64,000 bases of DNA, from positions 1 through 64,000 of the IMG/VR virus record IMGVR_UViG_3300008259_000014; one strand, 5' to 3'. Of this stretch, positions 354 through 63,927 are shown in pieces. The position numbers and the translations under genes were made by a program. Every line of letters begins with the position of its first letter. Position 1 is the stretch's first letter. This DNA is from a virus. Below the pieces are notes generated by a model, which worked only from the letters and a program-made list of their open reading frames with translations, did not search any database and had not been told where the DNA came from.

Positions 354-409
354 TTTCCACCTGGTGTATTCTAAATACAAATAATAATAGAATACACCAG
401 GTGGAAAAT
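352..409 (-). promoter_or_regulatory. Perfect hairpin burying a ribosome binding site
   Basis: Bases 352-372 and 389-409 form a perfect 21-base inverted repeat with a 16-base loop. On the minus strand the 3' arm contains the AGGTGG ribosome binding site and the first two bases of the ATG of the downstream gene. No T-run follows the hairpin, so it does not look like a rho-independent terminator. An RNA switch for translation or an RNase III processing site are the simplest readings (inference). Confidence 0.6.
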
Positions 410-666
410 TAAACCTTATATCTTATTTTTACTTTTGTAGTAAAAGGATCAACGCATTCTGGATTTCCCCACATTTCACCTGGATTTACTCTTACTTGGT
501 TGATTGCAATCATAGCAACATTTGCGTCTGCAATTCCAGGCGTTAGCTTCTTTAACTCTACCGTTAGAAATCTTGCAACTGCTGCCATCAAAGCTTTTCC
601 AACTTCTGCCTCAACCTCCTGTGGTACCTGTAAGTTTGCAATCGAATCTAATACAATAACTCCCAT
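409..666 (-). CDS. RecA/UvsX-like recombinase, C-terminal fragment (frame-broken)
   Basis: This fragment carries the second half of a RecA-type ATPase core: a Walker-B-like strand VIVLDS near its start and the L2-region motif INQVR followed by GEMWGNPE, which matches the INQIR...GVMFGNPE of RecA. The frame stays open upstream to about 732, overlapping the end of the N-terminal fragment in another frame. It stops soon after the L2 motif, so the last core strands and the C-terminal domain of cellular RecA (about 350 residues) are missing. Either the gene is decaying or the sequence has an indel. The family call is firm; whether a working protein is made is not. Confidence 0.65.
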   Translation of the reverse strand: MGVIVLDSIANLQVPQEVEAEVGKALMAAVARFLTVELKKLTPGIADANVAMIAINQVRVNPGEMWGNPECVDPFTTKVKIRYKV

Positions 667-707
667 CTTTCCACAGTTTAAGGAAACTTTCTTTTTTGTA
701 GAAGGGT

Positions 708-1073
708 TTACATATGATATAGTCTGGCCTCTCTATCATTATCTACTCCAAACTTTGCAGCCCATTCTGCAGAGTATGTATACTCTGCATCAATAAATGC
801 AACGCAATTTTCTGGATCTTGTGCCTGCCAATTTGCCATTGCAATTAATGCAAGCAATGTCTTTCCTGAGCTTGGGGCTCCCGCAAGTTGGATCAACCTT
901 CCTCTTGGCCATCCGCCTATTCCAATTGCCCTATCCAAAGAAGGCGTTCCAGTTGGTACAGTGTCTGTGTGTATTGTCTGATCTGGTCTTACAACTGATT
1001 CAGATCCAAATAAATCCTCTAAGCTTTTCCAAGCTTCTGAATCTGACAATAACTTCTCTTCGCCTTTAGCCAT
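708..1073 (-). CDS. RecA/UvsX-like recombinase, N-terminal fragment (frame-broken)
   Basis: The 121-residue product has the RecA-type N-terminal ATPase region: PTGTPSLDRAIGIGGWPRGR before a Walker A motif GAPSSGKT at about residues 66-73, then VAFIDAE matching the FIDAE strand of RecA. The frame ends after EARLYHM, and the rest of the core continues in a different frame downstream. A -1 type shift between 708 and 732 would join the two parts into about 221 residues. RecA-type proteins form filaments on single-stranded DNA and drive strand exchange. The SSB, RuvC-like resolvase and SbcCD genes nearby fit a recombination role. Its start follows chaperonin 1 by 9 bases. Confidence 0.7.
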   Translation of the reverse strand: MAKGEEKLLSDSEAWKSLEDLFGSESVVRPDQTIHTDTVPTGTPSLDRAIGIGGWPRGRLIQLAGAPSSGKTLLALIAMANWQAQDPENCVAFIDAEYTYSAEWAAKFGVDNDREARLYHM

Positions 1074-1082
1074 TATTTCTCC

Positions 1083-2729
1083 TTAGTATTTGTGGTTTAA
1101 GTTTGCGTTTTCTGGCGGCCTCCATCCTGCCGGCGCTTGCCAGTCAGATTTGTTAACCGGTGAATCAGAAACTATCGCTTCTGTATTTATAAGCAGCAAT
1201 GCTATGCTTGTCGAGTTTTCTAGAGCTGTTCGTGTAACTTTTTTTGGATCAATAACACCTGATTCAATCAGGTTTTCCCACTTCATGGTTGCGGCATTAA
1301 AACCAATTCGCCAGTCTTCAGTTTCGATGGTCTGCTTTAGTATTTGCTCAGCGTCTTGATGGGCGTTTAATGAGATTTGCATTAAAGGCTTTTTGCAAGA
1401 TTCCATCAATACCTCTGCAGCTTCCTTGAAATCTTCTGGAATTTTAGACTTATCTATCATCCTTACAGCTCTAACAAGAGCTGTTCCGCCACCGGGAACA
1501 AATCCCTCATCAATTGCTGCTTTTGCAGCAGATAAAGCGTCCTCTAGTCTATCTCCTTTTTCTCTTAACTCCAACTCAGTCAAATAGCCAACGCATATAA
1601 CTGCTGTTTTATTTTGAAGAAATTCAATCCTCTTTCTTAGATCTAACCTTTCTGTATCTCCAAGATTTTCTTTTATATCATGTGCATAAAATGCAAGTTT
1701 ATGCTCTAGTCTTTTTATATCTTTTTTTCCTTCAACAATATTTGTTACATATTTATTTACTGATATTCTTTTTGCATATCCAAGATCACTTAGTGATGCA
1801 GCTGATAATTCTATTCCGTTTGCAGATCCAAAAACTTTTGCTCCAGTAAGAATGGATAAATCATCTAGCCATTCATTTTGATGCTGACCGGCAAATGGTG
1901 GAATTTCCGTTGCTACACATTGCAGCCTACCAAGTTTATTATTAGCAACAAGTGTTGCCAAAGCCTCTTGCTTTAGAGCCTTGCATATAATTAACAATGG
2001 AGCTTGGCTGTTGCTCAGCTCATTTAATAACGGTAAAAATCCATTTAAAGATGCTATCTCTTGATTTGCAATCAATATTCTTGCATTTTCAAATACAACA
2101 TCTGACTTGCCATCTAGTAAAAAGTTTGATGTTATATAGCCTTTTTTATACTCAAGACCCTCTGTCACACGCACGTACGTGCGTGTACCTGCTGAGCCTT
2201 CTGCCAATACAGTTCCCTCTAGACCAACCTTCTCAAATGCTTCTGCAATTGCAGAGCCCATATCACTATCGTTATTTGCTGATATTGTAGCAATGTTTCT
2301 TAGCGAGTCAATATCTTCAATTTTTGTTGTTAATAAGTCTAAGTTTTTAACTATCTCGTCTCTTGCCCACTCAAGACCTCTCTTTAGCTTTAAAGGGCTA
2401 TAACCTGTTGATATAAGCGTGTCACCTCTTTCAAATATTTCTCTTGCAAGTACTGTTGCAGTAGTTGTTCCATCTCCCGCCATATCTGCTGTCCTTCCTG
2501 CTGCTTCTTTTACAAGCTGACAAGCCAAGTCTTCAACTGGATCTAGTAGAGTTATCTCTCTAGCAACTGAGACCCCGTCTTTTGTGATTACTGGCGCACC
2601 AACAAATTTTTTCAAAATTACATTCTTTCCCTGTGGACCCATAGTTACTGCCACCGTTTTTGCAAGCTTATCCAATCCACTCTTTAATCTCTGTCTTGCA
2701 TCATTTGCATAATATAAATCTTTTGACAT
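1083..2729 (-). CDS. GroEL-like chaperonin, copy 1 (divergent)
   Basis: A 548-residue 60-kDa chaperonin that would form ring assemblies for ATP-driven folding. The nucleotide-binding motif GDGTTTATVLA is intact and the second conserved ATPase region appears as LEDALSAAKAAIDEGF followed by PGGGTAL. The apical region is more diverged than in the second copy at 48122. The C-terminus ends in NLNHKY and lacks the GGM-repeat tail of E. coli GroEL. I placed the start at 2729 because AGAGG sits just upstream of that ATG; a longer frame begins six codons earlier. It lies 11 bases after the RuvC-like gene. No GroES-type co-chaperonin is visible in the window. Confidence 0.93.
   Translation of the reverse strand: MSKDLYYANDARQRLKSGLDKLAKTVAVTMGPQGKNVILKKFVGAPVITKDGVSVAREITLLDPVEDLACQLVKEAAGRTADMAGDGTTTATVLAREIFERGDTLISTGYSPLKLKRGLEWARDEIVKNLDLLTTKIEDIDSLRNIATISANNDSDMGSAIAEAFEKVGLEGTVLAEGSAGTRTYVRVTEGLEYKKGYITSNFLLDGKSDVVFENARILIANQEIASLNGFLPLLNELSNSQAPLLIICKALKQEALATLVANNKLGRLQCVATEIPPFAGQHQNEWLDDLSILTGAKVFGSANGIELSAASLSDLGYAKRISVNKYVTNIVEGKKDIKRLEHKLAFYAHDIKENLGDTERLDLRKRIEFLQNKTAVICVGYLTELELREKGDRLEDALSAAKAAIDEGFVPGGGTALVRAVRMIDKSKIPEDFKEAAEVLMESCKKPLMQISLNAHQDAEQILKQTIETEDWRIGFNAATMKWENLIESGVIDPKKVTRTALENSTSIALLLINTEAIVSDSPVNKSDWQAPAGWRPPENANLNHKY
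2166..2188. repeat. Alternating purine-pyrimidine tract containing a 20-base perfect palindrome
   Basis: All 23 bases alternate strictly between pyrimidine and purine, and 2167-2186 is a perfect palindrome centred on CGTACG. It lies inside the chaperonin 1 coding region (encoding a Thr-Arg-Thr-Tyr-Val-Arg-Val stretch in the apical domain). Such sequences can adopt Z-DNA or cruciform forms under negative supercoiling; that part is inference. Confidence 0.7.
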
Positions 2730-2740
2730 ATTAACCTCTC

Positions 2741-3304
2741 TTAACAAAGTGTATATTGATTTTTGCTATCAGTTTTGATTATTGTAGCGATCCCAACAGC
2801 AACTGCATCGGCTTCATCTTCAAGTTCTTTTTTAAAAGTACCCTTCTTGGTTGGAATGCGATTAAATCCTTTTAACGTTTTTACCCATTCATAAACTTCT
2901 TCCTTTGAAGAAATCTTTGTGCCAGAAAATTTTGATAAAACGCTTCTAAGCGATAAGACTCCAAGCTTTTCTGGTACTTGTTTTGTCTTAACTATGCAGG
3001 CCATTGTTATAGCTTCGTTAAATACGGATAATACTATTATTGTCTTAGCCGTTGATCTTCCTGCTGCAAATCTTGATACGTAATCTTCAATTATTATTCT
3101 ATCTGGCTTTTTCTGATCTATAAGATTTGATATAATTTCCTGACCCTTTAAGGCTCTCATTGCTAATGAAAGTGGATTAGCCTCAGTTCCTTTGGGCGGC
3201 TTAATGTGACCGTGAGACTCAATTTTTATTTGATAATTATCAATTGTCAAAAGTGACCAGCCTATTGTCGAAGACGACACATCAAGCGATAAAACTCTGT
3301 TCAT
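2741..3304 (-). CDS. RuvC-like Holliday junction resolvase
   Basis: The 187-residue product has the RNase H-fold pattern of RuvC: an N-terminal VLSLDVSSSTIGWS strand with the first catalytic Asp at residue 8, a second acidic strand RIIIEDY at about residues 69-75, and a C-terminal DEADAVAVG motif at about 163-171 holding the remaining acids. Members cut four-way DNA junctions; phages use them in recombination and to debranch DNA before packaging. Its AGGAG ribosome binding site follows directly after the T-run of the terminator at 3320-3357. It starts a cluster with chaperonin 1 and the recA-like fragments. Confidence 0.85.
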   Translation of the reverse strand: MNRVLSLDVSSSTIGWSLLTIDNYQIKIESHGHIKPPKGTEANPLSLAMRALKGQEIISNLIDQKKPDRIIIEDYVSRFAAGRSTAKTIIVLSVFNEAITMACIVKTKQVPEKLGVLSLRSVLSKFSGTKISSKEEVYEWVKTLKGFNRIPTKKGTFKKELEDEADAVAVGIATIIKTDSKNQYTLC

Positions 3305-34719: not shown

Positions 34720-35799
34720 TTATTTCCTTGTTCCGAATGCGTGTGATTCCTCTAATCCAGATTGGGTTATCCTGATAAATTCTGCCTCTCTAAGAGAGAG
34801 TATAGACATTGAATTTAAATATGTCATTGCAGATCTTAATCCGCCTATATATTCGTCTATTATTGGCTCTACTGGCCCTGCATATCTTAGCCTTGTTGAT
34901 ACTCCCTCTGCACATGTTCCCTTTTTTAGACCGCCCATTTTCTCTACTTGTATATCACTTGATGCCATACCGCGATATACTTTCCACATATCTCCATCAA
35001 CATCCAGCAGCTCCCCTGGTGTTTCTGCGGTTGCTGCAATAGCTCTACCTAATATAACTCCAGATGCTCCAGCTGCGAGTGCTTTTACCATATCACCTGG
35101 ATATCTAATACCGCCATCAGCTATAATGGTTCCAATTGGAAATCTGCTATCATCATCTAGATAGCAGCTCATAACAGATGTTAAGGTAGGGACTCCGCAA
35201 CCGGTTTGTATTCTCGTTTTACAGATGGATCCTCCTCCTATTCCGACCCTTACAGCGTTTGCCCCTTCATTCATTAGAAATTCATAGCCTTCACTTGTTG
35301 CAACATTTCCAGCAATTATATTAAATTCATCTTTATTACCAGCAATATTTCTTGCTTGCTTCATCATTTCTAATACATAATCTGTGTGCCCATTTGCAAC
35401 ATCAATAACTATTGTTTTTATATTTAATTCTTTTTTCAATCTTTTCAGTCTATCAACCTCTGCATCGCCTATACCTATAGCTACTGCTAGAGCATCTCTT
35501 TTGTTTTTGTTAATTTCAGAGAAGATTTTTTTCACTTCATCAATCTGCCTCTCAACAGGCATAAACCTATGAAGCATGGCCATGCCTCCAAGTCTTATAA
35601 TTTCTATTGCCATTTTATGCTCTGTTATTGTATCCATAGGGCTAGATATAATTGGGATGTCCAACTCTACATTGCCAATAAGCGTATGAGTCTTTGGATC
35701 TTTTCTGGATCTAATTGATGAATACTTGGGTATTAACATTACATCATCATATGATAATGCATTCATCATATTGTTTATTTCTTTTTTCACCATACTCAT
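34720..35799 (-). CDS. IMP dehydrogenase-like enzyme without CBS domains
   Basis: A 359-residue TIM-barrel enzyme of the IMPDH/GMP-reductase family. Near the N-terminus SYDDVMLIPKYSSI is typical. The catalytic loop reads VGIGGGSICKTRIQTGCGV with the active Cys (about residue 195), then GTIIADGGIRYPGDMVKALAAG. WKVYRGMASS keeps the Arg-Tyr-type flap of IMPDH (RGM), favouring IMPDH over GMP reductase. The regulatory CBS pair is absent. IMPDH makes XMP on the way to GTP. The start at 35799 has AGGAG five bases upstream and overlaps the upstream gene by a few bases. With PurA downstream it would split IMP between guanine and adenine routes. Confidence 0.85.
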   Translation of the reverse strand: MSMVKKEINNMMNALSYDDVMLIPKYSSIRSRKDPKTHTLIGNVELDIPIISSPMDTITEHKMAIEIIRLGGMAMLHRFMPVERQIDEVKKIFSEINKNKRDALAVAIGIGDAEVDRLKRLKKELNIKTIVIDVANGHTDYVLEMMKQARNIAGNKDEFNIIAGNVATSEGYEFLMNEGANAVRVGIGGGSICKTRIQTGCGVPTLTSVMSCYLDDDSRFPIGTIIADGGIRYPGDMVKALAAGASGVILGRAIAATAETPGELLDVDGDMWKVYRGMASSDIQVEKMGGLKKGTCAEGVSTRLRYAGPVEPIIDEYIGGLRSAMTYLNSMSILSLREAEFIRITQSGLEESHAFGTRK

Positions 35800-35809
35800 A
35801 ATGTCTCCT

Positions 35810-36268
35810 TTATTCATTTACATATATATATTCAGCTTTGTACGCAAAAGACTCTGTGTCCATGCTTATATTCCCAAGCAAGCACCACCTATCATACCAA
35901 TAATGAGAAAATTCATGAATAAGGGTTCCCATTGGTATTGGAGCATTGTCACCAACCAGCAAACATGAATCTCCTTTAACCCAAATTGTCGGGTCATAAA
36001 GTCCGAAAATTTCTTTACCTCCAACTCCAATCTCCTCCTTCCAGTATGCTATATCATTTCTATTTAGTGAAGATCTTGTTATCTCATAAATATGAAGATT
36101 CATATAAGATCTGCAATCACTTGGTTTTCTACCCATTTCTCTTAAAATCTTTTCAGAAATCAGATAACTTTTTTTTGCTGCAAAATCTATTTGCTCCCTT
36201 GTAAATTTCTTTTTTGAATAATTTTGCTCTTTGTAAACATTATATTTAATATATGATTCATTTACCAA
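35810..36268 (-). CDS. HExxH metallopeptidase-like protein, start uncertain
   Basis: The C-terminal part holds IPMGTLIHEFSHYWYDRW, a HExxH zinc-peptidase motif with a hydrophobic helix. The rest is not recognised. The reading frame continues upstream to 36400, but that part crosses the terminator at 36293-36321 and overlaps the stop of a small gene, so a start there is unlikely. No in-frame ATG with a ribosome site follows until late in the gene; the TTG at 36268 is my placeholder. A TATAAT lies 23-28 bases downstream of it in the sense direction, suggesting a promoter here and a later unusual start, or a decayed N-terminus. The frame overlaps the IMPDH-like start region. Confidence 0.5.
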   Translation of the reverse strand: MVNESYIKYNVYKEQNYSKKKFTREQIDFAAKKSYLISEKILREMGRKPSDCRSYMNLHIYEITRSSLNRNDIAYWKEEIGVGGKEIFGLYDPTIWVKGDSCLLVGDNAPIPMGTLIHEFSHYWYDRWCLLGNISMDTESFAYKAEYIYVNE

Positions 36269-37594: not shown

Positions 37595-38428
37595 TTATTT
37601 TTTTAGTTTTTCTAAACTAGACACAGAAAAGCCTGAAGCTCTTTTGTGTCCACCACCACCATACATTTCAGCTATCTTTGTAACATCCATTCCGTTCTCA
37701 TCAGATCTTAAGGAGAAATTATATCTATCTATATTCCAATGATAAACAGCGGCAAATGGCTTGTCAACATTAATTTTATTACAAAGTTCAGCATAGCACC
37801 AGGAGCTATTCAAAGCGGGAACTTCAAAGCCTCCTATAACAAGCGTATGCTTCTTTTCTAGCAACTTATTTAGCTGCATATCTTTAAAACGCTCTATTGC
37901 AGCACCCTGCAACAGGACATCCTTATATTTTTCACTTTCTGGATTTATCTCCAAAGCTAAATCTTTCCAAATCTCTTCTGAGTATTCAAAAGAGTCGATA
38001 TAAAGAAGTACTTTTCCAGAATCTTTTATGGAATGTCTCCATAAATCAAAATCTTCTATACAGTGAATCATATGTGGAATATTGCTATCACCAAATAAAT
38101 ACTTCCAGCTTAAATAAGCTCCAGAGTGATTTACATCATAAATAAATTCATCATAGGCCGCTCCTTTGAGATTTGCAAGCTTTCTCTCTGCCGAAACATG
38201 ATGATCTATTATTGTTAGAGAATTTGCTTTATTTTTTATTTCTATCATTTTATTTGGATCAAAAGAAAAATCAGCAAAAAATACATCTCTTCCAGAGAGA
38301 TCTATATTAAATTCTCTCTGATAATAGGCTGGAATATATTCCATACTATCGCCATACTTCATCCAAAAGGCAAACCTTGAACCAAATCCATCTCTACAAT
38401 CTGCATGATATATTAAAACTGGTTTCAT
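37595..38428 (-). CDS. DHH-family phosphoesterase
   Basis: The 277-residue product has the DHH motifs: HADCRDGFGS (motif I) at residues 9-18, FFADFSFD, then TIIDHHVS, the namesake DHH at about residues 76-78. The DHHA1 domain ends with MYGGGGHKRASGFSVS, the GGGH substrate-binding motif. Members break down nano-RNA, cyclic dinucleotides or 3'-phosphoadenosine phosphate. A phage could use it to recycle short RNA or destroy cyclic oligonucleotide signals of host defence; the latter is inference. Its ATG overlaps the stop of the PurA-fragment gene by 4 bases (ATGA). Confidence 0.85.
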   Translation of the reverse strand: MKPVLIYHADCRDGFGSRFAFWMKYGDSMEYIPAYYQREFNIDLSGRDVFFADFSFDPNKMIEIKNKANSLTIIDHHVSAERKLANLKGAAYDEFIYDVNHSGAYLSWKYLFGDSNIPHMIHCIEDFDLWRHSIKDSGKVLLYIDSFEYSEEIWKDLALEINPESEKYKDVLLQGAAIERFKDMQLNKLLEKKHTLVIGGFEVPALNSSWCYAELCNKINVDKPFAAVYHWNIDRYNFSLRSDENGMDVTKIAEMYGGGGHKRASGFSVSSLEKLKK

Positions 38429-38757
38429 GATATTGACTCTGGTGAGTGAGCAAAGTAAATATCCTCTACTAAATCACAATCATTTCTAATTATTAGTGTG
38501 ATTGCTTTTTTCATTTCTTCGATGGAGTCTGCCTGCATTAAAACTCCATTATATGTCATTTTTAGAAGATTTAAGCTTTCTAGAACGTCACACTTTGCTA
38601 CTGCCAAATGTGTTACCCCAGATTTATTTACAGCCTCGACAAGCTTATTCATATTCAGCCAATTAACTTTCCTTGCAATTCCGCTGGTTGCTTCACATAT
38701 TTTACCTAAAAAAAATCCATCCGGGCAGCCGGTATCAAAACTAATATCTAGCCTCAT
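38425..38757 (-). CDS. Stand-alone PurA C-terminal-like domain
   Basis: The 110-residue product aligns with the last third of the full PurA encoded just upstream: ARKVNWLNMNKLVEAV versus RRKVNYLNLDRLIFAL, LAVAKCDVLES versus LIISKCDVLEE, and CDLVEDIYF versus CPDVEDFYY. The guanine-recognition motif (K-C-D-V-L) is kept, but the Arg pair that binds IMP in PurA (TGRRRKV) is replaced by SGIARKV. It lacks the P-loop and catalytic domain, so it cannot be a synthetase alone. It may be a decayed duplicate or a regulatory or GTP-binding partner. Start at 38757 by GGAGA eight bases upstream. Confidence 0.7.
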   Translation of the reverse strand: MRLDISFDTGCPDGFFLGKICEATSGIARKVNWLNMNKLVEAVNKSGVTHLAVAKCDVLESLNLLKMTYNGVLMQADSIEEMKKAITLIIRNDCDLVEDIYFAHSPESIS

Positions 38758-38806
38758 AAAAACACTCTCCATTAAGTAATGGCAAATTATCTATATAAAA
38801 ATTGAT

Positions 38807-39913
38807 TTAAAGACTCAACCCCTCTACTACCTCTTTTGAGGAAGAATAATAGAAATCCTCAACATCAGGACACTCTATTGTGAGAATGTCGGAAATACAA
38901 TCTTTCATCATTTTTAACGAATCAAATGATATTAAATTATTTTTATAATACATTTTATATATCTTTACTTCTTCCAAAACATCACACTTCGATATTATCA
39001 ATTTATTTCCGCCACCAGTTTTTAATGCAAAGATAAGACGATCTAGGTTAAGATAGTTTACCTTGCGGCGGCGACCAGTGGTAACACCATATTCTTGTCC
39101 AACTTCTCCAATCTTTTCCAAATCTGGATTATCAAAAAGTGTTTCTGGAAAATCAGGATCTTCACCAGAACGTGTCTCATAAATTTTAGCTACTGCATAA
39201 ATGTTTTTTATTTTCTTTGGAGGAAAGCCAATAGAGCAAGCCGCATATGGAAGTGTCTCACTGGACGTGACATATGGATAATTTCCATAGTTTATATCAA
39301 GATAAAAACCCTGAGCACCCTCGCAAAGTATATTTCCATACAAATTTCCATCAAACAAGAAATCTCTCCAGGCCCTCTTTTTATCTCCAATCTTAAATGT
39401 CCGTTTATTGTCTATCCCGGCTATAGACTCAAATCTTACACCTGTTCTAGAATACTTTTCGCCGTAGGCTGGCGCAATGCCTCTTGAAGTTGTTCCTAGT
39501 TTCTTAGAAAGATTAGACTTATCAAAATCTATATGATTTTCAGACACAATGTGTGCCATTGGCGAAATTTTAACTAAGTCAATATTAAAACCGTTACTAT
39601 CTAGATAGATCAACTCACCCATTAGGGAGTCAAGATTAACAACGCATCCAGGTCCAATAAGAGACTTTATTCCATGAAAGACACCGGATGGAATCAAATG
39701 TGTCTTATATTTTTCACCATTTACATAGACTGTGTGGCCAGCATTTGCCCCTCCACCCCATCTAGCTACAAAATCATAATACTTATTGCCAGATCCATCT
39801 TGTGATGCTTGAGGGTCTAATTGCGATGAAAGATAAGATGAAACCTTGCCTTTACTTTCATCTCCGTAGCTAGCACCATATACAATATCAACAGATACAA
39901 CTTTGCCACTCAT
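38807..39913 (-). CDS. Adenylosuccinate synthetase-like enzyme, short type
   Basis: A 368-residue enzyme of the PurA family, shorter than E. coli PurA (432) and nearer the archaeal/phage PurZ size. The P-loop reads YGASYGDESKGKVSS; the catalytic Asp of GDEGKGK is kept (PurZ enzymes have Ser there), while a Gly becomes Ser. GGANAGHTVYVNGEKYKTHL, GTTSRGIAPAY and ILCEGAQGFYLDINYG are the usual PurA motifs, and TGRRRKVNYLNLDRL and ISKCDVLEE form the substrate and guanine sites. It would join aspartate to IMP (or another purine nucleotide) using GTP. The homing-type endonuclease gene lies directly upstream. Confidence 0.88.
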   Translation of the reverse strand: MSGKVVSVDIVYGASYGDESKGKVSSYLSSQLDPQASQDGSGNKYYDFVARWGGGANAGHTVYVNGEKYKTHLIPSGVFHGIKSLIGPGCVVNLDSLMGELIYLDSNGFNIDLVKISPMAHIVSENHIDFDKSNLSKKLGTTSRGIAPAYGEKYSRTGVRFESIAGIDNKRTFKIGDKKRAWRDFLFDGNLYGNILCEGAQGFYLDINYGNYPYVTSSETLPYAACSIGFPPKKIKNIYAVAKIYETRSGEDPDFPETLFDNPDLEKIGEVGQEYGVTTGRRRKVNYLNLDRLIFALKTGGGNKLIISKCDVLEEVKIYKMYYKNNLISFDSLKMMKDCISDILTIECPDVEDFYYSSSKEVVEGLSL

Positions 39914-48121: not shown

Positions 48122-49729
48122 TTAATCCTTGGTTTGTTCCTTTTCAAAAATTGTAACTTCCGTTGTCAACAGCGTTCCGCAGGCGGAAGCAGCGTTTTGC
48201 AACGCAGATCTTACAACCTTTAATGGATCAATTACCCCAAGAGATACCATATCATCTGAAAATACATTGTTTAATGCATCATAGCCGCAATGAACATTTC
48301 CACTTTCAATTATCTTTTCCATGACTAAAAATGGATTCTCAACACCTGCATTTTTCATTATCTGCAAGAATGGAGCCTTGATTGCCTTCTCCATTATATC
48401 AAAACCGACAGCCTCTTCGGGAGATAGCTTAGAAGCCATTTTAACCTCTTTTAGGCGCTGTACGCAGTGAAGCAGGGCAGATCCACCACCAGATACGATT
48501 CCCTCGTCTATTGCCGCCCTGACGGCATTAATAGCGTCTTCTACTCTATCCTTTCGCTCCTTCATTTCAGCTTCGGAAACTCCACCAACCTTGACGACTG
48601 CTATTGCGCCAGTTAATGCTGATAGCCTCATCCTTAAGCTTGCTAGCTGAAAGTCAATCATAGATGGGTCTTGTAATTGGCTTTTCAAGGCATCAACTCT
48701 TTGAGCTACTGACTCTGCTGAGCCACCACCGTCTATAATTGTTGTATTATTCTTTGTAACAATAACTTTTCTTGCCGTTCCAAGTGCAGACTTATCTGCA
48801 TCTCTTAATAGATCAACCTCCTCTTGGGTAAAGAATGTTGCTCCGCAAAGAACTGCTATATCAGATAGCATGTCCCTTCTTATATCTCCAAATCCAGGTG
48901 CTTTTATAGCACAACAATGCAAAGAACCTTTGGCCCTATTGACAACTAGGGTTTGAAATGCCTCACCATCTACGTCTTTAGCAATAATTAAAATTTGCTT
49001 TCCAGACTCAGAGACTGATTGCAGTATTTTTAAAATATCTTTTGAGCTTGAAATTTTTCCATCATATACCAGAATATATGGTTTATCAAACTCTACAGTC
49101 ATTTTTTCAAAATTATTTATAAAGTTTGGAGTTAGATACCCTCTATCAATATCTACGCCATCTGAGTATACAATTCTTGTCTCAGATCCAGTTGCATCTT
49201 CTACTGTTATAGTTCCATTGTTTCCAACTGTTGAGACTACCTCTCCAACAAGAGAGCCTAAGTCTACATCGTTATTTGCAGATATGATCGCAACATTTTT
49301 AATCTCATCGTCATTAGAAACCTTACTTCTAATTGAGGAAAGCTTTTCTACTACTGCGGCAGTAGCCTTATCTATTCCTCTTTTGATTAAAACTGGATTG
49401 TGACCTGCCGCAACAAGCTTAGCTCCCTCGTTGTATATTGCTTGGGCCAAAACAGTTGCAGTGGTAGTTCCATCTCCAGCGGTTGCATTTGTAGCAGATG
49501 CTACAGCCTTAATTAGCTGGGCTCCCATATTTTTTACCTTGTCATCTAAATCTATAGCTCTTGCAACTGTTACACCATCTTTTGTAATTAAAGGTGGTCC
49601 GTATTTTCTCTCTATTGCGGCGTGTCTACCCTTTGGTCCAAGAGTTGCTTTGACTGCATTTGCTAGTATATCAAGACCCTCTTGCAGTCCGTTTCTTGCC
49701 TCTGCGGCAAACTTTACATCTTTACTCAT
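48122..49729 (-). CDS. groL: GroEL-like chaperonin, copy 2 (canonical)
   Basis: A 535-residue chaperonin closer to bacterial GroEL than copy 1. Motifs include KATLGPKGRHAAIERKYGPP, ITKDGVTVA, GDGTTTATVLAQAI and VEDAINAVRAAIDEGIVSGG with the catalytic Asp. The apical region VDIDRGYLTPNFI matches the substrate and co-chaperonin surface of GroEL. The GGM tail is absent. AAGGAG lies seven bases before the ATG. It follows a small cysteine-rich gene that has its own promoter element. Having two chaperonins suggests mixed or separate rings; no GroES is visible here, so a host GroES or a gene outside the window may serve. Confidence 0.95.
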   Translation of the reverse strand: MSKDVKFAAEARNGLQEGLDILANAVKATLGPKGRHAAIERKYGPPLITKDGVTVARAIDLDDKVKNMGAQLIKAVASATNATAGDGTTTATVLAQAIYNEGAKLVAAGHNPVLIKRGIDKATAAVVEKLSSIRSKVSNDDEIKNVAIISANNDVDLGSLVGEVVSTVGNNGTITVEDATGSETRIVYSDGVDIDRGYLTPNFINNFEKMTVEFDKPYILVYDGKISSSKDILKILQSVSESGKQILIIAKDVDGEAFQTLVVNRAKGSLHCCAIKAPGFGDIRRDMLSDIAVLCGATFFTQEEVDLLRDADKSALGTARKVIVTKNNTTIIDGGGSAESVAQRVDALKSQLQDPSMIDFQLASLRMRLSALTGAIAVVKVGGVSEAEMKERKDRVEDAINAVRAAIDEGIVSGGGSALLHCVQRLKEVKMASKLSPEEAVGFDIMEKAIKAPFLQIMKNAGVENPFLVMEKIIESGNVHCGYDALNNVFSDDMVSLGVIDPLKVVRSALQNAASACGTLLTTEVTIFEKEQTKD

Positions 49730-53769: not shown

Positions 53770-54595
53770 CTTTTATATTTTCCAAGGTGTTTATAAATGA
53801 ATTAAAGTATTTTTCATTTATCATTGATTTTAAATTTAATGATTCAAATAGATTGAAAATTTTATCGGAATCAAGAATACCATTGTAAAATAATATAGTA
53901 TCTTTCTCTTCTTTTAAATCTGCAAACTTTACAAGATTATATGAATGATCGTACTCCTGCTTAAATACTGGATTTTTAAGCTTTGCATTCAAAATTGACT
54001 TGTCTTTAAGCATTTTTACAGCTCCAACTTTTCCAACTCCCTTTACACCAGGTATATTATCTGTCTTGTCACCAACAAGAGCCTTATAGCTAGTATAGTC
54101 AACATCCATTCTTTGCCTATAAGCTTTCTCTATTGGATTCCAAAGAGAGACCTTATCGGATAAATCAAGAGTTTGAATAAAGTCAGTATCCGAAGAAATA
54201 ATGACTTTTTCTCCGTAAAGAGTTGTTGCCAGGTAATTAAGTATGTCGTCACACTCATGATCTGGGTGATATACAGTAATAAATGGAAAGAATTCTTTTA
54301 CTGAATCAATTATTATTCTTTTTTGTTTGTGAAAGCTTTGCCAATATTCTAATTCTTCTTTAGTTGGATCTACAAGCTTTCTATTACCCTTATACTCAGA
54401 GTCCATCTCAAGCCTTTTCTTTGGCTTTCCGTCAAGAATAAAGTAAACTCTTTCTGGGGAAAAGGTATCTAGTATTGGCTTTAAAGATTTAAAAAAGTTA
54501 TATACAATCTGATTTTCGCCATCTGCTAGGCCGCCGCCCCAATTAAATCTGGAGCGATGAATTAAATTATAGCTATCTACTAGTATTTTTGTCAT
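53762..54595 (-). CDS. 5'-3' exonuclease / flap nuclease (PIN and HhH domains)
   Basis: A 277-residue nuclease of the PolI-exo / T4 RNase H family. The N-terminal acids lie in KILVDSYNLIHR, then YFILDGKPKKR, the DHECDDILN and IISSDTDFIQ strands carry the metal-binding Asp residues, and GDKTDNIPGVKGVGKVGAVK is the helix-hairpin-helix clamp. It would remove RNA primers and flaps during lagging-strand synthesis, complementing the DnaE polymerase. Its ATG overlaps the stop of the Cys-rich gene upstream by 4 bases. Confidence 0.93.
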   Translation of the reverse strand: MTKILVDSYNLIHRSRFNWGGGLADGENQIVYNFFKSLKPILDTFSPERVYFILDGKPKKRLEMDSEYKGNRKLVDPTKEELEYWQSFHKQKRIIIDSVKEFFPFITVYHPDHECDDILNYLATTLYGEKVIISSDTDFIQTLDLSDKVSLWNPIEKAYRQRMDVDYTSYKALVGDKTDNIPGVKGVGKVGAVKMLKDKSILNAKLKNPVFKQEYDHSYNLVKFADLKEEKDTILFYNGILDSDKIFNLFESLNLKSMINEKYFNSFINTLENIKDE

Positions 54596-55257
54596 TTAAA
54601 ATAAAGAACCTTATTTTTTGAGCCATTAATTGTCGATGCATTTCCATGGACTTTAAACATTACTACTATATCTTTTGTTTTAGAATCAACCCTGCATAAG
54701 GTACAGTCATTACATGATATATCCTTCTTGCCTGGAACACCATGTCTAGCTGGGCATATAACTGCTTTTTTACCAGCCAGCATTGTTGATTTTGGAACAT
54801 TGCCATCTGCAATAATTGTAGCGGCCCAACCCATATTTGAAGCCTCTTTTAAGTCATCTATATCATTACATGATGCTCTAAAATAATTTTTTAGAGGCTG
54901 GGAGCTTTTCTCCCTCCAGGTATGAGTATACCCAACATTTATAAGTCCGGCATTTTTAACTTCTTCACATTCTTTTATCGTCATATCAACATCGTCAACA
55001 ACATCTCCGGCAACCCTATGCCTTGCAATCTTTGCAGTCTTAGCCCTAGATGTTAAAGCCTGCTTTAAAGACTTTGGCTGCAAGACTCCATTGGATATCT
55101 TTCTGCCTAAATTTCTAAGGTAGAATAAGCCCCACGCATAACAGCCTCCAGTTTTCAACTGACATGAATCTGGACATGATTCCAATGGAGAGTAGCTTGC
55201 TAAAACTTCACCTATTTTCTTATCACTTGACTTTGATACCCAATGTACTTTTCTCAT
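54592..55257 (-). CDS. Cysteine-rich phage protein (DUF7227-like)
   Basis: The 221-residue protein has Cys groups near both ends: SCPDSCQLKTGGCYAWGLFY at about residues 27-46 and CPARHGVPGKKDISCNDCTL at about 165-185. The spacing suggests a metal or iron-sulfur site. This family is seen in phages without known function; I call it DUF7227-like with caution. It starts after a long perfect hairpin (55270-55313) and overlaps the exonuclease gene. Its mixed fold with VAGDVVDDVDMTIK could be a barrel. Confidence 0.6.
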   Translation of the reverse strand: MRKVHWVSKSSDKKIGEVLASYSPLESCPDSCQLKTGGCYAWGLFYLRNLGRKISNGVLQPKSLKQALTSRAKTAKIARHRVAGDVVDDVDMTIKECEEVKNAGLINVGYTHTWREKSSQPLKNYFRASCNDIDDLKEASNMGWAATIIADGNVPKSTMLAGKKAVICPARHGVPGKKDISCNDCTLCRVDSKTKDIVVMFKVHGNASTINGSKNKVLYFK

Positions 55258-58689: not shown

Positions 58690-59982
58690 TTATTCCTTTG
58701 AGTTATACTTATTTATAAGATATCTCATATATTTTTCTCTATAATATCCGCCATATCCCATTAAGTGCATTGTCATATCTCTTTCCTTCCAGTTTACAGG
58801 ATGGGAATTAAATACTGACTCAGGCAGTCTTAGGTAATCTCTATTCTCAGTTCCAAACTCTTTGCATCTATTTATTAGCATTGTTTGATCGCCTCCAAAG
58901 GCGTATACTGAGCTTTTATCTCCGGCAATTATTATATCAGAACACACTTGATTTAAGAGCTTCTTTGAAAAATCTGATTTTTTAAATATCATAAAGCCTG
59001 AATTAAAAAAATGCTCTAATGATGGATCTTTACATACAATAAAGCTATGATCAAAATTTTTTGCTATATTTACTATAGATTTTTCTGGGTTTGTAAAGAC
59101 AATATCAGAATCAACCCATATAACAGTTTCATATTTTTTAAGTACTTCGTTTATTGCAAAAGTCTTTGACCAGTTCCCAGGCTGATTACTTAGTATTGCA
59201 AAGTTGTAAATTTTATAAGATATTTTATGATGATCACAATAAAATTTTATTGACTCTGCAGAAAGCCTTCCTTGTGTTTTTATATTTTCTGTATACAGAG
59301 AAACAATACACGTATCAGATCCGTAGTCTTTTTCTAGTTCAATATCCTTTGTATCAATAGATACAGGAACTTCCATATTTACATATCTAGACTCATGACT
59401 AAGATCATCGTCTCCATATGAAGCTAAAAAGAACTCTTTCATTGGAGCTATAGAACTATTAAAATAAAATAAATCACGAATAGTAAAAATTGAATATTTT
59501 ATTTTTGTTGCATTTAATAGGTTTATAACGCCTTGAGAATAAGCCTGCATATCTCTTGAATTTTTCGCAGCGCATAACTCAAATGTTGTTATGGAGTTAT
59601 CTATGCTTAAAATTTTTCTTAGCAGTACTTTATTTTGATCATTGTTTCTTATTGCAAGAAAATGAAGATTTAATATTTTTGAATCTTTACTTGGAGCGGA
59701 TAGCACTATATCACTTCCGCAATATGTAATATTACTAATATCGTAATCAAGGTTATTTATAGCTGTATATGGTCCGCATACAATTACCCATTCAGCTTTT
59801 GAACTGAATAAAGTAGAATATAGTGTTCCAAGCATTATTGGAATATAATCAGAATTGGAAGCTGGATAGTCAAGCTCCTGCTGAATCAATGATATATTAT
59901 TTTTCTTGCAGTAGACTTTGTAAGTCTCCAGGCTTCTTTTGAAATCTTTATGATAAATGGTTATTAATTCTATATTTTGCAT
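58690..59982 (-). CDS. Glycosyltransferase, GT-A type
   Basis: The 430-residue product has a C-terminal GT-A glycosyltransferase region: VIWVDSDIVFTN (DxD motif for metal and nucleotide sugar) at about residues 290-301, then FIVCKDPSLEHFFNSGFMIF and FGGDQTMLINRC, as in the GT34/galactosyl transferase group. The N-terminal half may be a second GT domain, with EWVIVCGPYTA and SDIVLSAPS. It could glucosylate phage DNA or proteins, or decorate the virion or host surface; the substrate is unknown. Confidence 0.75.
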   Translation of the reverse strand: MQNIELITIYHKDFKRSLETYKVYCKKNNISLIQQELDYPASNSDYIPIMLGTLYSTLFSSKAEWVIVCGPYTAINNLDYDISNITYCGSDIVLSAPSKDSKILNLHFLAIRNNDQNKVLLRKILSIDNSITTFELCAAKNSRDMQAYSQGVINLLNATKIKYSIFTIRDLFYFNSSIAPMKEFFLASYGDDDLSHESRYVNMEVPVSIDTKDIELEKDYGSDTCIVSLYTENIKTQGRLSAESIKFYCDHHKISYKIYNFAILSNQPGNWSKTFAINEVLKKYETVIWVDSDIVFTNPEKSIVNIAKNFDHSFIVCKDPSLEHFFNSGFMIFKKSDFSKKLLNQVCSDIIIAGDKSSVYAFGGDQTMLINRCKEFGTENRDYLRLPESVFNSHPVNWKERDMTMHLMGYGGYYREKYMRYLINKYNSKE

Positions 59983-59995
59983 AACATATAAAATA

Positions 59996-60904
59996 TTAAT
60001 TAATAGACGCTAAATCATCTTCTGTATATAAGAATCCTGACGTGTAATCTCCCCTAGTATGTAAGAATAATTTAATATCTTCATGCTTAAACAAGCCAAA
60101 AAAAGCTTTGTTTATATGTTTTTCCATATAAATAAATGGAATTATTACTGAGAAGAATTCAACCTCTTTGAGTGCATCATAGAATTCTCTCATAGCTTTG
60201 GAAAACTCATAACACTCCTTATGTTTTTTTACATTTCCTACTTTTATATCTTCCTGCACAAATTTGTATCCATCAATCGCATAACACTCAGAGTTTCTTG
60301 AGTGCCATGGCTCATATACATCCTTTATATCAATACCAGTAGCAACAACCCAATATTCTGGATTTTCACGATCTGGAATCTCTCTTGGTGATTGTATATC
60401 ATATTCAAAATAATAATTTTCCACACCTATAGTATATTTTTCAAATTTTAATGTTTTACCATCTTTATTTAAGATATTAATAATATCGCCTTTTTTGCCC
60501 TCTCTCTTCATCAGATCTTTAACATTTTTGTTTTTTTCTGAAAAATTTGCTTTAGATTTTTTAAAATTGGCAAGAGCATCTAAGGCAGCCTTAAAAATTA
60601 CACCTTTTTCAGTAAAAAGATTTTCTGTTTTATTGTCTTTTACTGCAAGTAATATTTCTTCATGATTTTTTGCCATATCATATATATCTTTATATTTAGA
60701 GTATTTTATAAAAAAGTTTTTATATTTTCCCAAAATATATGTATAAGACCTAAGCTTAATTTTTATATTAACCTTTAGTAATTTATTTTTTAAATCTACA
60801 TCTTCAAGTTCCCAAATATAAGAATCAAAGATTTCTGGTGCTAGAGTTTTTTCACCTGAAAAATCATCATCAATAACGTATGAGATTGCTTTGCTATCTG
60901 TCAT
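59996..60904 (-). CDS. Cassette protein B, copy 2 (paired with a zinc-ribbon protein)
   Basis: Not recognised. The 302-residue product is a paralogue of the gene at 61260: the C-terminal 70 residues align well, FGLFKHEDIKLFLH versus FALFKHKDYKFYVH, and end YTEDDL versus YTEDEI. The N-terminal half is Lys-rich and helical. The start at 60904 (second of two ATGs) is chosen by spacing from AAGGGG. Its TGATG overlap with the zinc-ribbon gene upstream shows translational coupling within a two-gene cassette that is duplicated in tandem. Confidence 0.65.
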   Translation of the reverse strand: MTDSKAISYVIDDDFSGEKTLAPEIFDSYIWELEDVDLKNKLLKVNIKIKLRSYTYILGKYKNFFIKYSKYKDIYDMAKNHEEILLAVKDNKTENLFTEKGVIFKAALDALANFKKSKANFSEKNKNVKDLMKREGKKGDIINILNKDGKTLKFEKYTIGVENYYFEYDIQSPREIPDRENPEYWVVATGIDIKDVYEPWHSRNSECYAIDGYKFVQEDIKVGNVKKHKECYEFSKAMREFYDALKEVEFFSVIIPFIYMEKHINKAFFGLFKHEDIKLFLHTRGDYTSGFLYTEDDLASIN

Positions 60905-61266
60905 CATAGCCCCTTTTTATCAAGGTAGGTATTTTCCCATTTTTTGCACAGCTTTTCTTTTTCCGTGCTTGCAACATATTCCCTCTCCCAATCAGAATCT
61001 TCCAGATTAAGAAGAATATCGTACTCTACCTCTTTGAGGTAGTTCTCGACAGAATCTACGTATTTTACAGCTTGAACTGTTAGACATTTTTGACATCTAG
61101 CTAATAATAACTTTTGCAAAGGCTCAACTACAGCTCCATCCTCGTCAACTTTTACAAAAACCCTGCAGTTAGTTCGGCAAATTGAAACAGAAGATGGATG
61201 CAGTAACCTTGTACATTTACTGCATTTATATGTATCATTGTATGCTATACTATTTTTCACTAACAT
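60904..61266 (-). CDS. Cassette protein A, copy 2: zinc-ribbon protein
   Basis: The 120-residue product has YKCSKCTRLLHP and ARCQKCLTVQAV, a pair of CxxC knuckles about 45 residues apart, with two more Cys between. It is a paralogue of the gene at 62176: WEREYVASTEKEKL versus WHKEYLASVDKEKF and similar spacing of the Cys pairs. It overlaps protein B of the upstream copy by 7 bases, and its own protein B follows with a TGATG overlap. Unknown function. Confidence 0.65.
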   Translation of the reverse strand: MLVKNSIAYNDTYKCSKCTRLLHPSSVSICRTNCRVFVKVDEDGAVVEPLQKLLLARCQKCLTVQAVKYVDSVENYLKEVEYDILLNLEDSDWEREYVASTEKEKLCKKWENTYLDKKGL

Positions 61267-62174
61267 GAAGAAATTTCATCCTCGGTGTAAATTGATCCCC
61301 ATCCACCCTTCGTAGACATATGAACGTAAAATTTATAATCTTTATGCTTAAATAGTGCAAAATAATTATTTTTTGGAACCATTCTTGAATAAATAATTAT
61401 AAGAAAACGAGAGAAAAACTCTAAATCACTTGTTAAATCATTAAATTCTCTAGAAATTTTGATGAACTCATCACACTCTTCATAGAAGTCTATTCTATTA
61501 GAATCAAATGAAACTTCACCGTAACCCATAACAGAGTAATTTTTATTCTTAATAAAGAATGAACTATTTACAGATTCTATGTTTGAGGATACTCTATATT
61601 TTGATGAATTATCTACTTTTGAATTTGGAATAATTGCTCTTCCAAATTCATTTTCTGATATCCACAATGTATCAAAACATATAAGAGCATTTTTAATAAT
61701 ATCCCCATTATAGTGTTTATATTCTGGAGCAAAATGAATTAGCTTTTGCCTAGAGGATTGTGCAATAAGTTTTTTAACTTTTTCTTCTGATTTTTTAAAA
61801 ATCTCATATTCAATATTTCTTTTCTCAATCTTTTTATTGATCAAATCAAATATTGCATCTTTTCCACCAAAAACTGTGTCTAATTCATTAGACACCATCT
61901 TTTCCATAAAAGAATCAAAATTTTCGATTAGATCATGAAAACTTTTATATTTGCAAAGTTCAAAAAAAGTATCCGGTGATGTATTTACTATATCAATCAT
62001 AGCTTTAGAAACATCAAATATATCTATATTTAGAGTTTCAAAATGCGAAAGAAGATCAGATCTGTATTTATAAAAATAGGCATTAATAAATTCTGATTTT
62101 ATCTTTAATTGTTTTTTACCATATCGACTATTTTCTATAAATAGATTTGGATCAATATTTTGAGAATTTTTCAT
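61260..62174 (-). CDS. Cassette protein B, copy 1
   Basis: Not recognised. The 304-residue product has a helical Lys-rich N-terminal half and a conserved C-terminal domain shared with the gene at 59996: CDEFIKISREFNDLTSDLEFF versus CYEFSKAMREFYDALKEVEFF (first 20 residues compared), then FALFKHKDYKFYVH and YTEDEI. It follows its zinc-ribbon partner after one base. Confidence 0.65.
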   Translation of the reverse strand: MKNSQNIDPNLFIENSRYGKKQLKIKSEFINAYFYKYRSDLLSHFETLNIDIFDVSKAMIDIVNTSPDTFFELCKYKSFHDLIENFDSFMEKMVSNELDTVFGGKDAIFDLINKKIEKRNIEYEIFKKSEEKVKKLIAQSSRQKLIHFAPEYKHYNGDIIKNALICFDTLWISENEFGRAIIPNSKVDNSSKYRVSSNIESVNSSFFIKNKNYSVMGYGEVSFDSNRIDFYEECDEFIKISREFNDLTSDLEFFSRFLIIIYSRMVPKNNYFALFKHKDYKFYVHMSTKGGWGSIYTEDEISSC

Positions 62175-62175
62175 T

Positions 62176-62526
62176 TTATTTCTGGTCTATTATTGTTTTG
62201 ATAAATTTTTCCTTATCTACTGATGCAAGGTATTCTTTATGCCATCCATCAATATCTAAATAAAAAGTAATTATACTTTCTGCTTTCTCAAGATATTCTT
62301 GAATTGAGGAATAGTATTCTACTACTTGAGCTTGTCCGCAAGACAAACAGGCTATAGCGAGCTTCTTTTCTATTGGAAATGAGACATGCCCTTGCTCTGT
62401 GCTCTTTAGCAAAATCCTCCTATCCCTATTGCTAGGAGAGAATACGGCTGGATGAATAACTACATCGCAGAATTTGTTAATACATCGTATTGTGTCGTTC
62501 AGCGGAGCTTGCTCTATTTTGCTCAT
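62176..62526 (-). CDS. Cassette protein A, copy 1: zinc-ribbon-like protein
   Basis: The 116-residue product has CINKFC and CLSC Cys groups in the same places as the CxxC pairs of the paralogue at 60904, though the first has widened spacing. It ends with WHKEYLASVDKEKFIKTI. It is the first gene of the cassette operon, with a near-consensus promoter upstream and a GAAATG start region. Unknown function; nucleic-acid or protein binding is likely. Confidence 0.65.
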   Translation of the reverse strand: MSKIEQAPLNDTIRCINKFCDVVIHPAVFSPSNRDRRILLKSTEQGHVSFPIEKKLAIACLSCGQAQVVEYYSSIQEYLEKAESIITFYLDIDGWHKEYLASVDKEKFIKTIIDQK

Positions 62527-62558: not shown

Positions 62559-62586
62559 ATTTTAACCAGGTGATTACTGGTGTCAA
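62559..62586 (-). promoter_or_regulatory. Strong sigma70-like promoter of the duplicated cassette
   Basis: On the minus strand a perfect TTGACA (62581-62586) is followed after 16 bases by TAAAAT (five of six to TATAAT). The spacer contains an inverted repeat ACCAG-7-CTGGT that could be an operator. It lies 33 bases before the first cassette gene. This is the best promoter match in the window. Confidence 0.65.
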
Positions 62587-62587
62587 T

Positions 62588-62623
62588 AAAATAAAACAGC
62601 CAGTAGTAAAAAACTACTGGCTG
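62588..62623 (-). terminator. Rho-independent terminator after the AAA ATPase gene
   Basis: CAGCCAGTAGT pairs with ACTACTGGCTG around a five-base loop, followed by TTTTATTTTATT on the minus strand. It lies 24 bases after the stop of the AAA gene and just upstream of the cassette promoter. Confidence 0.88.
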
Positions 62624-62646: not shown

Positions 62647-63927
62647 CTAGTAATAGCCGACACCTGCTTTGTTTGCCTTTACCTGCTTTCCAAGATTTGA
62701 CAACATTTCATTTGCAGATTCCATTATATCATCATCTCTAATTAAAGAGATATCTTCTGCATAATTTGATTTTGAAAATGCTTTGTTTGCTGCATTTAAA
62801 AAGATACCTTTCACAAAGGCCATAGAGTGGCCTATTACCATTTTTGCAACCTTTTTTGTGCAATCTTCAGTAACAGAATCATTGTTGCAGAGCTTGATTA
62901 AATACTCAGAAATTGTATCTTCAGTTGGACAATCAAATGGTATTCTCATATCAAATCTTCCAGGCCTTAGTAAGACTTCTGGATCTAATTTTTTCGGATC
63001 ATTTGCTGTTGCAATTAATATAGAATTTGTTCTTTGTGTTACGCCGTCAAGACAGTTTAATATTGCAGACAGAGAAACTTGTGTTTTAAAACTCTCTTCC
63101 TTTGAAAAGTATCTGTCAATATCTTCTAGCAATAGAATTCTTATATTTTTTGCTGTCGTGATATTTTTATCAATCCTTGGTGGAGCACTTTCTTCAAAAG
63201 AAATTGGAATTTCTGGAACAGCATATGAGTATGGAGGCTTTCTTGTCTCCAAATCTCCTAGCATCCATCTAGAAAATTCATTATCTGGATCTTCATATTT
63301 TCCAGAAAATGAAAATGATTCTACAGGTCTATTGTAGTACTTTGATATAGCTCTAATTACAGAAGTCTTTCCATTTCCTGGTGGACCATAAAGTAAATAT
63401 GATCTAGCATAGGGAAGATCTCTAAGTGTGAACCAGTTTTTTGACCTTGAAAAAAACAACACATCTTTCCTCATGGATTCTGTTTTTTCATTCCAAATAA
63501 CAGAATTCAGGTTGCTCTCATCAAGAATTGGTTTTTCTTTTATTTTAATAGCATTGATAAAGTTATCAAATAAAGAAATATTATTCTTGTCTATAACAAA
63601 ACCATAGTATGCAGAGTATACAATGCAATTAGTTTTTGGAATTTTGTAAGTATTATTACATTTTCTTTTTACAAAACTGCCGTCCTTAGAGATAGAAATA
63701 ACATTGTCAGGAAGATACTCTTCCATATTTGAAACAATTTCTGATCTTAAATTAAATGAATAATCATAGATATCTTTTATAATTTCAATAATAACTAAAT
63801 CATCAAAGTTAGAATTAGAGAATATTTTTTCTACATAAGATCTATCCTGCCTTAGCTGATCTACGGCATTTGCATCCATTATATTACTAACTATTGAATA
63901 GTTATATTTTGTAGCAATATTTAGCAT
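62647..63927 (-). CDS. BCS1-like AAA ATPase
   Basis: A 426-residue AAA protein. Walker A is LLYGPPGNGKTSVI near residue 181, Walker B ILLLEDIDRYF near residue 272, then LSAILNCLDGVTQR, IATANDPKKLDPEVL and LRPGRFDMRIPFDCPT, the typical AAA second region of homology and Arg fingers of the BCS1/classic AAA group. The N-terminal 170 residues are specific to this protein. Such AAA proteins unfold or move proteins; in phages they occur without known substrate. AAAGGAG lies seven bases before the ATG, within the end of the previous gene. Confidence 0.9.
   Translation of the reverse strand: MLNIATKYNYSIVSNIMDANAVDQLRQDRSYVEKIFSNSNFDDLVIIEIIKDIYDYSFNLRSEIVSNMEEYLPDNVISISKDGSFVKRKCNNTYKIPKTNCIVYSAYYGFVIDKNNISLFDNFINAIKIKEKPILDESNLNSVIWNEKTESMRKDVLFFSRSKNWFTLRDLPYARSYLLYGPPGNGKTSVIRAISKYYNRPVESFSFSGKYEDPDNEFSRWMLGDLETRKPPYSYAVPEIPISFEESAPPRIDKNITTAKNIRILLLEDIDRYFSKEESFKTQVSLSAILNCLDGVTQRTNSILIATANDPKKLDPEVLLRPGRFDMRIPFDCPTEDTISEYLIKLCNNDSVTEDCTKKVAKMVIGHSMAFVKGIFLNAANKAFSKSNYAEDISLIRDDDIMESANEMLSNLGKQVKANKAGVGYY

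Follow-up and report, generated by a model that had tools for sequence, protein, structure and literature searches.

Do four closely packed genes at positions 59996–62526 of a viral contig represent a two-gene unit that was copied as a whole, and what would such a unit do for the phage? The window analyzed here comprises bases 1–64000 of a linear virus record that is 102,310 bases long, and "contig" refers to the whole record. A first-pass annotation of the window had described the locus as a tandem duplication of a two-gene cassette, encoding a zinc-ribbon protein and a partner, with a layout not known from any described system. Its coordinates were correct, and we add the strand, which was missing from it: all four genes are located on the minus strand, in the transcription order A1, B1, A2, and B2 (Table 1).

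Layout and divergence of the two gene pairs

Table 1. Cassette genes and flanking features, in window positions
Feature	Positions	Strand	Basis or remark
AAA ATPase (Pfam AAA), upstream neighbor	62647..63927	minus	homologue in G013, 44% identical
Terminator-like hairpin with T tail, ending the upstream AAA ATPase gene	62597..62623	minus	
Sigma-70-like promoter site, TTGACA-16-TAAAAT, 11/12	62559..62586	minus	consensus match only
A1, small cysteine-pair (zinc-ribbon-like) protein, 116 aa	62176..62526	minus	ORF and similarity to A2
B1, partner, 304 aa	61260..62174	minus	ORF and paralogy with B2
A2, small CxxC...CxxC protein, 120 aa	60904..61266	minus	ORF and similarity to A1
B2, partner, 302 or 303 aa	59996..60907	minus	ORF and paralogy with B1
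Glycosyltransferase-like (GT34/GT8) protein, downstream neighbor, 13 nt past B2	58690..59982	minus	

The A1/B1, B1/A2, and A2/B2 junctions measured +1, −7, and −4 nt, respectively, in agreement with their earlier description as overlapping or touching. The first 7 nt of A2 coincide with the last 7 of B1, and the start of B2 shares ATGA with the stop of A2; the 302-aa form of B2 is the likelier one because AAGGGG occurs approximately 5 nt before the second ATG. A1, B1, A2, and B2 are real, tightly coupled genes. A1 and A2 shared 35% identity over 111 aa (E = 4e-21), and B1 and B2 shared 27% identity over 254 residues (E = 5e-15). With both paralogies significant, the duplication of the gene pair was borne out, and the refuting outcome named in the first-pass annotation, unrelated partners or partners of a known family, did not occur for B1 and B2, which are homologous and have no known-family match. 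The N-terminal halves of the partners had been called divergent; divergence was indeed greater there, but the alignment reached query residues 26–303 in an extended comparison, so that homology covers most of the length. B1 has a helical N part and a C-terminal segment LFKHxDxK...YTED. Similarly, the cysteine-pair positions had been described as shared between the two small proteins, which holds for the second pair, CxxC in both, whereas the first pair differs in spacing, being CxxxxC in A1 (C15, C20) and CxxC in A2 (C15, C18). Identity by codon position was 0.61 at the second position versus 0.43 at the first and 0.33 at the third for A1/A2, and 0.62 at the second versus 0.46 and 0.47 at the other positions for B1/B2. 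These patterns are consistent with an old duplication of coding genes that remained under purifying selection.

A promoter-like site with a perfect −35 element is located upstream of A1, directly behind the terminator-like hairpin, which sets the AAA gene apart from the cassette. This site had been named the best promoter in the window; it is present, but it ties with eight others, given that nine 11/12 sites occur in the 102-kb contig including the one before A1, and the total of promoter-like matches showed no excess over shuffled sequence (56 versus a mean of 51.5). Based on consensus and spacing, a promoter and an operon are predicted here, and the transcript likely continues through the genes for the glycosyltransferase-like protein, an RNA ligase/tail-fiber-attachment protein (phrog_562), a dCMP deaminase, and a UvdE-type endonuclease. 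A reading of the upstream AAA gene, which resembles IetA, as part of the IetAS defense system was rejected: the gene scored 45.6 bits for IetA against an NCBI cut-off of 510, and no protease gene adjoins it.

Searches for known families and remote relatives

None of the four proteins had a significant match in Pfam, PHROGs, NCBIfam, or PADLOC, and comparisons with PDB sequences were empty or returned chance matches, so the cassette is undescribed, as had been proposed. No tblastn match was found for A1, A2, or B2 among 50,697 phage records, nor for B1 among plasmid records, and scans of IMG/VR and GTDB contigs with single-protein or two-sequence patterns detected no homologue. An ORF of Pseudoalteromonas phage H101 and a match in Staphylococcus phage HH3 were chance matches, for which follow-up showed no kinship. 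AF2 monomer models from two-sequence alignments, B1 being among the proteins modeled, were of low confidence (mean pLDDT 52 and 44), and three Foldseek searches with these poor models as queries yielded no match at E 0.001.

Eighteen related records, up to 335 kb in length, were found by scanning with DnaE and with the 221-aa gene at 54592–55257, and were read whole or nearly whole; the duplication and profile survey covered 2751 genes from 19 records of the phage group. The A and B profiles gave no strong match in the related records. Two weak A matches stood out, P0007 (98 aa) in G013 and P0009 (107 aa) in G018, with hhalign P values against A of 1.1e-5 and 4.3e-5, respectively, as single comparisons. 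A profile of P0007 and P0009 retrieved A1 (E = 2e-7) and A2 (E = 5e-5) as the top non-self matches among the 2751 genes, and leave-one-out profiles gave 6e-5 and 1.2e-4. These naive E-values are inflated because both proteins had been chosen for their likeness to A. In a circularity control with the 26 best A matches (325 pairs), P0007/P0009 was the best pair on every measure, and background pairs went down to 8e-6; therefore, we set the E-value aside and relied on rank and context. Both P0007 and P0009 have an overlapping gene on their upstream side, of 247 aa in G013 and 236 aa in G018; an overlapping upstream gene of 230–310 aa has a base rate of 3.8% per gene. The tendency of weak A matches to lie next to weak B matches had a permutation p of 0.034. 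We consider, with good confidence, that the sequences of A1, A2, P0007, and P0009 point to a genuine family. C15, C18, and C58 (A2 numbering) were invariant across the four sequences, and the fourth candidate metal ligand, C61, varied in P0007 and P0009; A is a putative zinc-binding protein.

In comparison with the B profile, the overlapping partner in G013, P0008, had an hhalign P of 0.024 and took third place among 580, first place going to B2 itself; the partner in G018, P0010, was not detected by that profile (rank 263 of 580). Homology to B is thereby weakly suggested for P0008. Either the evolution of the partner was much faster than that of A, or the partner was exchanged. Gene order differs as well, the B-type gene preceding the A-type gene in the relatives and the contig having A-B-A-B. 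Thus, the linked copies that the first-pass annotation had suggested looking for in phage genomes were found in part: probable A relatives with overlapping partners occur in G013 and G018, but partner homology is weak in the former and undetectable in the latter. Weak "pairs" in G012 and G019 were unrelated on inspection.

A zinc-ribbon/TOPRIM-primase pair found adjacent to RecA in this phage group (e.g., G001:79303–80416) resembles the cassette in that a cysteine-rich protein of approximately 120 aa is followed by an overlapping protein of approximately 250 aa; its partner, however, resembles TOPRIM primase and is unrelated to B. The zinc-ribbon protein of this pair reached E 0.01 with a profile including uncertain members and was rejected as an A relative by reciprocal search. 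Using the profile of the RecA-adjacent family, A1, A2, P0007, and P0009 were absent from the best 30 matches, and the profile-profile P was 0.042. RecA itself is broken up in the window at 409–1073 (minus strand) and in G003:11275–13292. In G003, the first RecA ORF stops shortly after "...GDPE" followed by "CVDPFSTVVKIRYKV", and the remainder is found in a later ORF behind "...NYMANGQLNHN" followed by "TTPGGKAL", with a small ORF in between, an arrangement that resembles a split intein whose N half is very short. The RecA of the contig has the same "...NPECVDPFTTKVKIRYKV" end and a frame break at about 666–708.

Gain, loss, and duplication within the phage group

The cassette occupies a variable interval beside conserved genes. 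G001 is colinear with the contig in inverted order. The UvdE/dCMP-deaminase block is directly beside the sigma gene in G016, and in the contig approximately 11 kb including the cassette separates the two. G013 carries the AAA ATPase (44%), HNH, ClpP, lysozyme-like, and RNA-ligase genes of the neighborhood in a different order. For the unit of G018, a close comparison is provided by G010, the two sharing 60–87% protein identity around the site. Their DNA is colinear except for a segment of approximately 1045 bases in G018, from about 141743 to 142787, that encodes both the partner and the A-type protein. This two-gene unit, a clean insertion relative to G010, was gained or lost as a block, by insertion or deletion. 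It sits between the ClpP and ThyX genes, and G020 carries the same unit. Beside the insertion, another small cysteine-rich protein is encoded in both genomes (G018:142773–143057 and G010:65969–66199; 74% identical).

Among the 2751 genes of the 19 records, the cassette was the only A-B-A-B arrangement of two different families; the remaining flagged cases were arrays of one family. Tandem paralogues are common in this phage group, with eight pairs on the contig, and do not necessarily point to an arms race. The tandem arrays at G009:8282–9899 and contig 88646–91039 (minus strand) resemble the cassette as diverged tandem copies in accessory regions, but each consists of one family, whereas two are interleaved in the cassette. 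The former comprises five paralogues of approximately 90–160 aa with "GxPxY" near the end, adjoining the sigma-factor gene, and similar copies are present in G018 (L034:3194–3833); the latter comprises three diverged paralogues of approximately 205 aa without a family match. Two further diverged tandem paralogues, of approximately 140 aa and likewise without a family match, are located at contig 70757–71583 (minus strand).

Two GroEL-like genes with 37% mutual identity are found at window 1083–2747 and 48122–49729 (minus strand), both conserved in related records. At window 38425–39913 (minus strand), a PurA-like gene encoding 368 aa precedes a 115-aa paralogue (39%) of its own C-terminal portion; together with an IMPDH/GMP-reductase-like gene (34720–35817) and an adenylosuccinate lyase gene (contig 64629–65945), it suggests, as judged from sequence, a phage purine pathway.

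Possible roles of the gene pair

Our leading reading, held tentatively, is that the cassette is a fast-evolving, co-translated two-protein accessory module that was duplicated and diversified, and that it most likely serves counter-defense or host takeover. The locus would then carry, in two diverged copies, an accessory module of two genes that belongs to a large uncultured phage group. A may be a zinc-ribbon adaptor that works with B in a co-translated complex; the module would be expressed from a host-type promoter, probably early, and would bind or inhibit host factors, most likely defense components; and the second copy may have been retained because its divergence gave another target. 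Counter-defense or takeover appears the likeliest purpose because of the analogy with other accessory genes of phages that increase in copy number, such as tifA, a counter-defense gene that T4 amplifies under toxIN pressure (PMC9391042). By this analogy, fast divergence and duplication would be the behavior of arms-race genes. Like the cassette, tifA is an accessory phage gene in extra tandem copies; unlike it, tifA is a single gene whose copies arose freshly in the laboratory (PMC9391042), whereas the cassette is a pair of different genes with copies 27–35% identical and no assigned function. The families are novel, but this kind of phage accessory evolution is already known.

A less probable explanation is that A and B are nucleic-acid-binding regulators, with a zinc ribbon in A and a DNA-binding domain in B, and that they redirect transcription or replication of the host or the phage. 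The cysteine pairs of A, the early-type promoter site, and a weak winged-helix-like match in P0010 (PADLOC WH_III-A, E = 2.4e-4, residues 42–103) are consistent with it, but no helix-turn-helix or other nucleic-acid domain was detected in B1, B2, or P0008, and B1 and B2 are acidic, with a pI of about 6. We regard as unlikely the wider proposal that uncultured huge phages harbor a new family of two-protein modules, with the zinc-ribbon adaptor kept, the partner changed beyond recognition or swapped between genomes, and tandem copies that would give one phage several anti-defense specificities.

Rather improbable, in our estimate, is an ordinary lineage-specific tandem duplication of neighboring orphan genes, in which the G013 and G018 matches are fortuitous and no shared function links A to B. 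The contig alone holds eight tandem paralogue pairs, selection of the candidates made the naive E-values for the remote A relatives too favorable, and B is undetectable in G018; A and B, however, were duplicated together with both copies kept, and the G013 and G018 matches exceed the selection background, both with overlapping partners.

Zinc-ribbon antitoxins exist, MqsA being an example, and MqsRA-type systems pair a zinc-ribbon antitoxin bearing a helix-turn-helix with a RelE-fold toxin. A toxin-antitoxin or superinfection-exclusion type of module, in which one protein harms or blocks and the other restrains, would accord with two overlapping genes that are gained or lost as a unit, and the MqsRA-type pairs share with the cassette a small two-gene unit with a CxxC...CxxC protein. 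Nevertheless, this reading is improbable: A and B had no toxin or antitoxin family match in Pfam, NCBIfam, or PADLOC, the cassette differs from MqsRA in having no helix-turn-helix or RelE-like toxin match (Pfam, NCBIfam), the partner, at approximately 300 aa, is large for a typical toxin, and gene order varies across genomes. Least probable is a role in surface variation, together with the downstream glycosyltransferase and RNA-ligase/tail-fiber-attachment protein, for although the cassette is on the same strand as and closely spaced to the GT-like and phrog_562 genes, all four proteins look soluble (Kyte-Doolittle average of no more than about 1.0 over the most hydrophobic 19-residue stretch) without a signal or membrane segment, the G018 unit lies away from GT and tail genes, and the glycosyltransferase-like protein has no homologue in the related records.

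If it is merely a lineage-specific duplication, the cassette is ordinary. If the two-protein accessory module is real, it would be an orphan pair that standard family searches have missed, its tandem copies would naturally allow two specificities to be compared within a single genome, and G018 and G010 would do the same for presence and absence. New counter-defense genes have come from fast-evolving accessory units of this kind.
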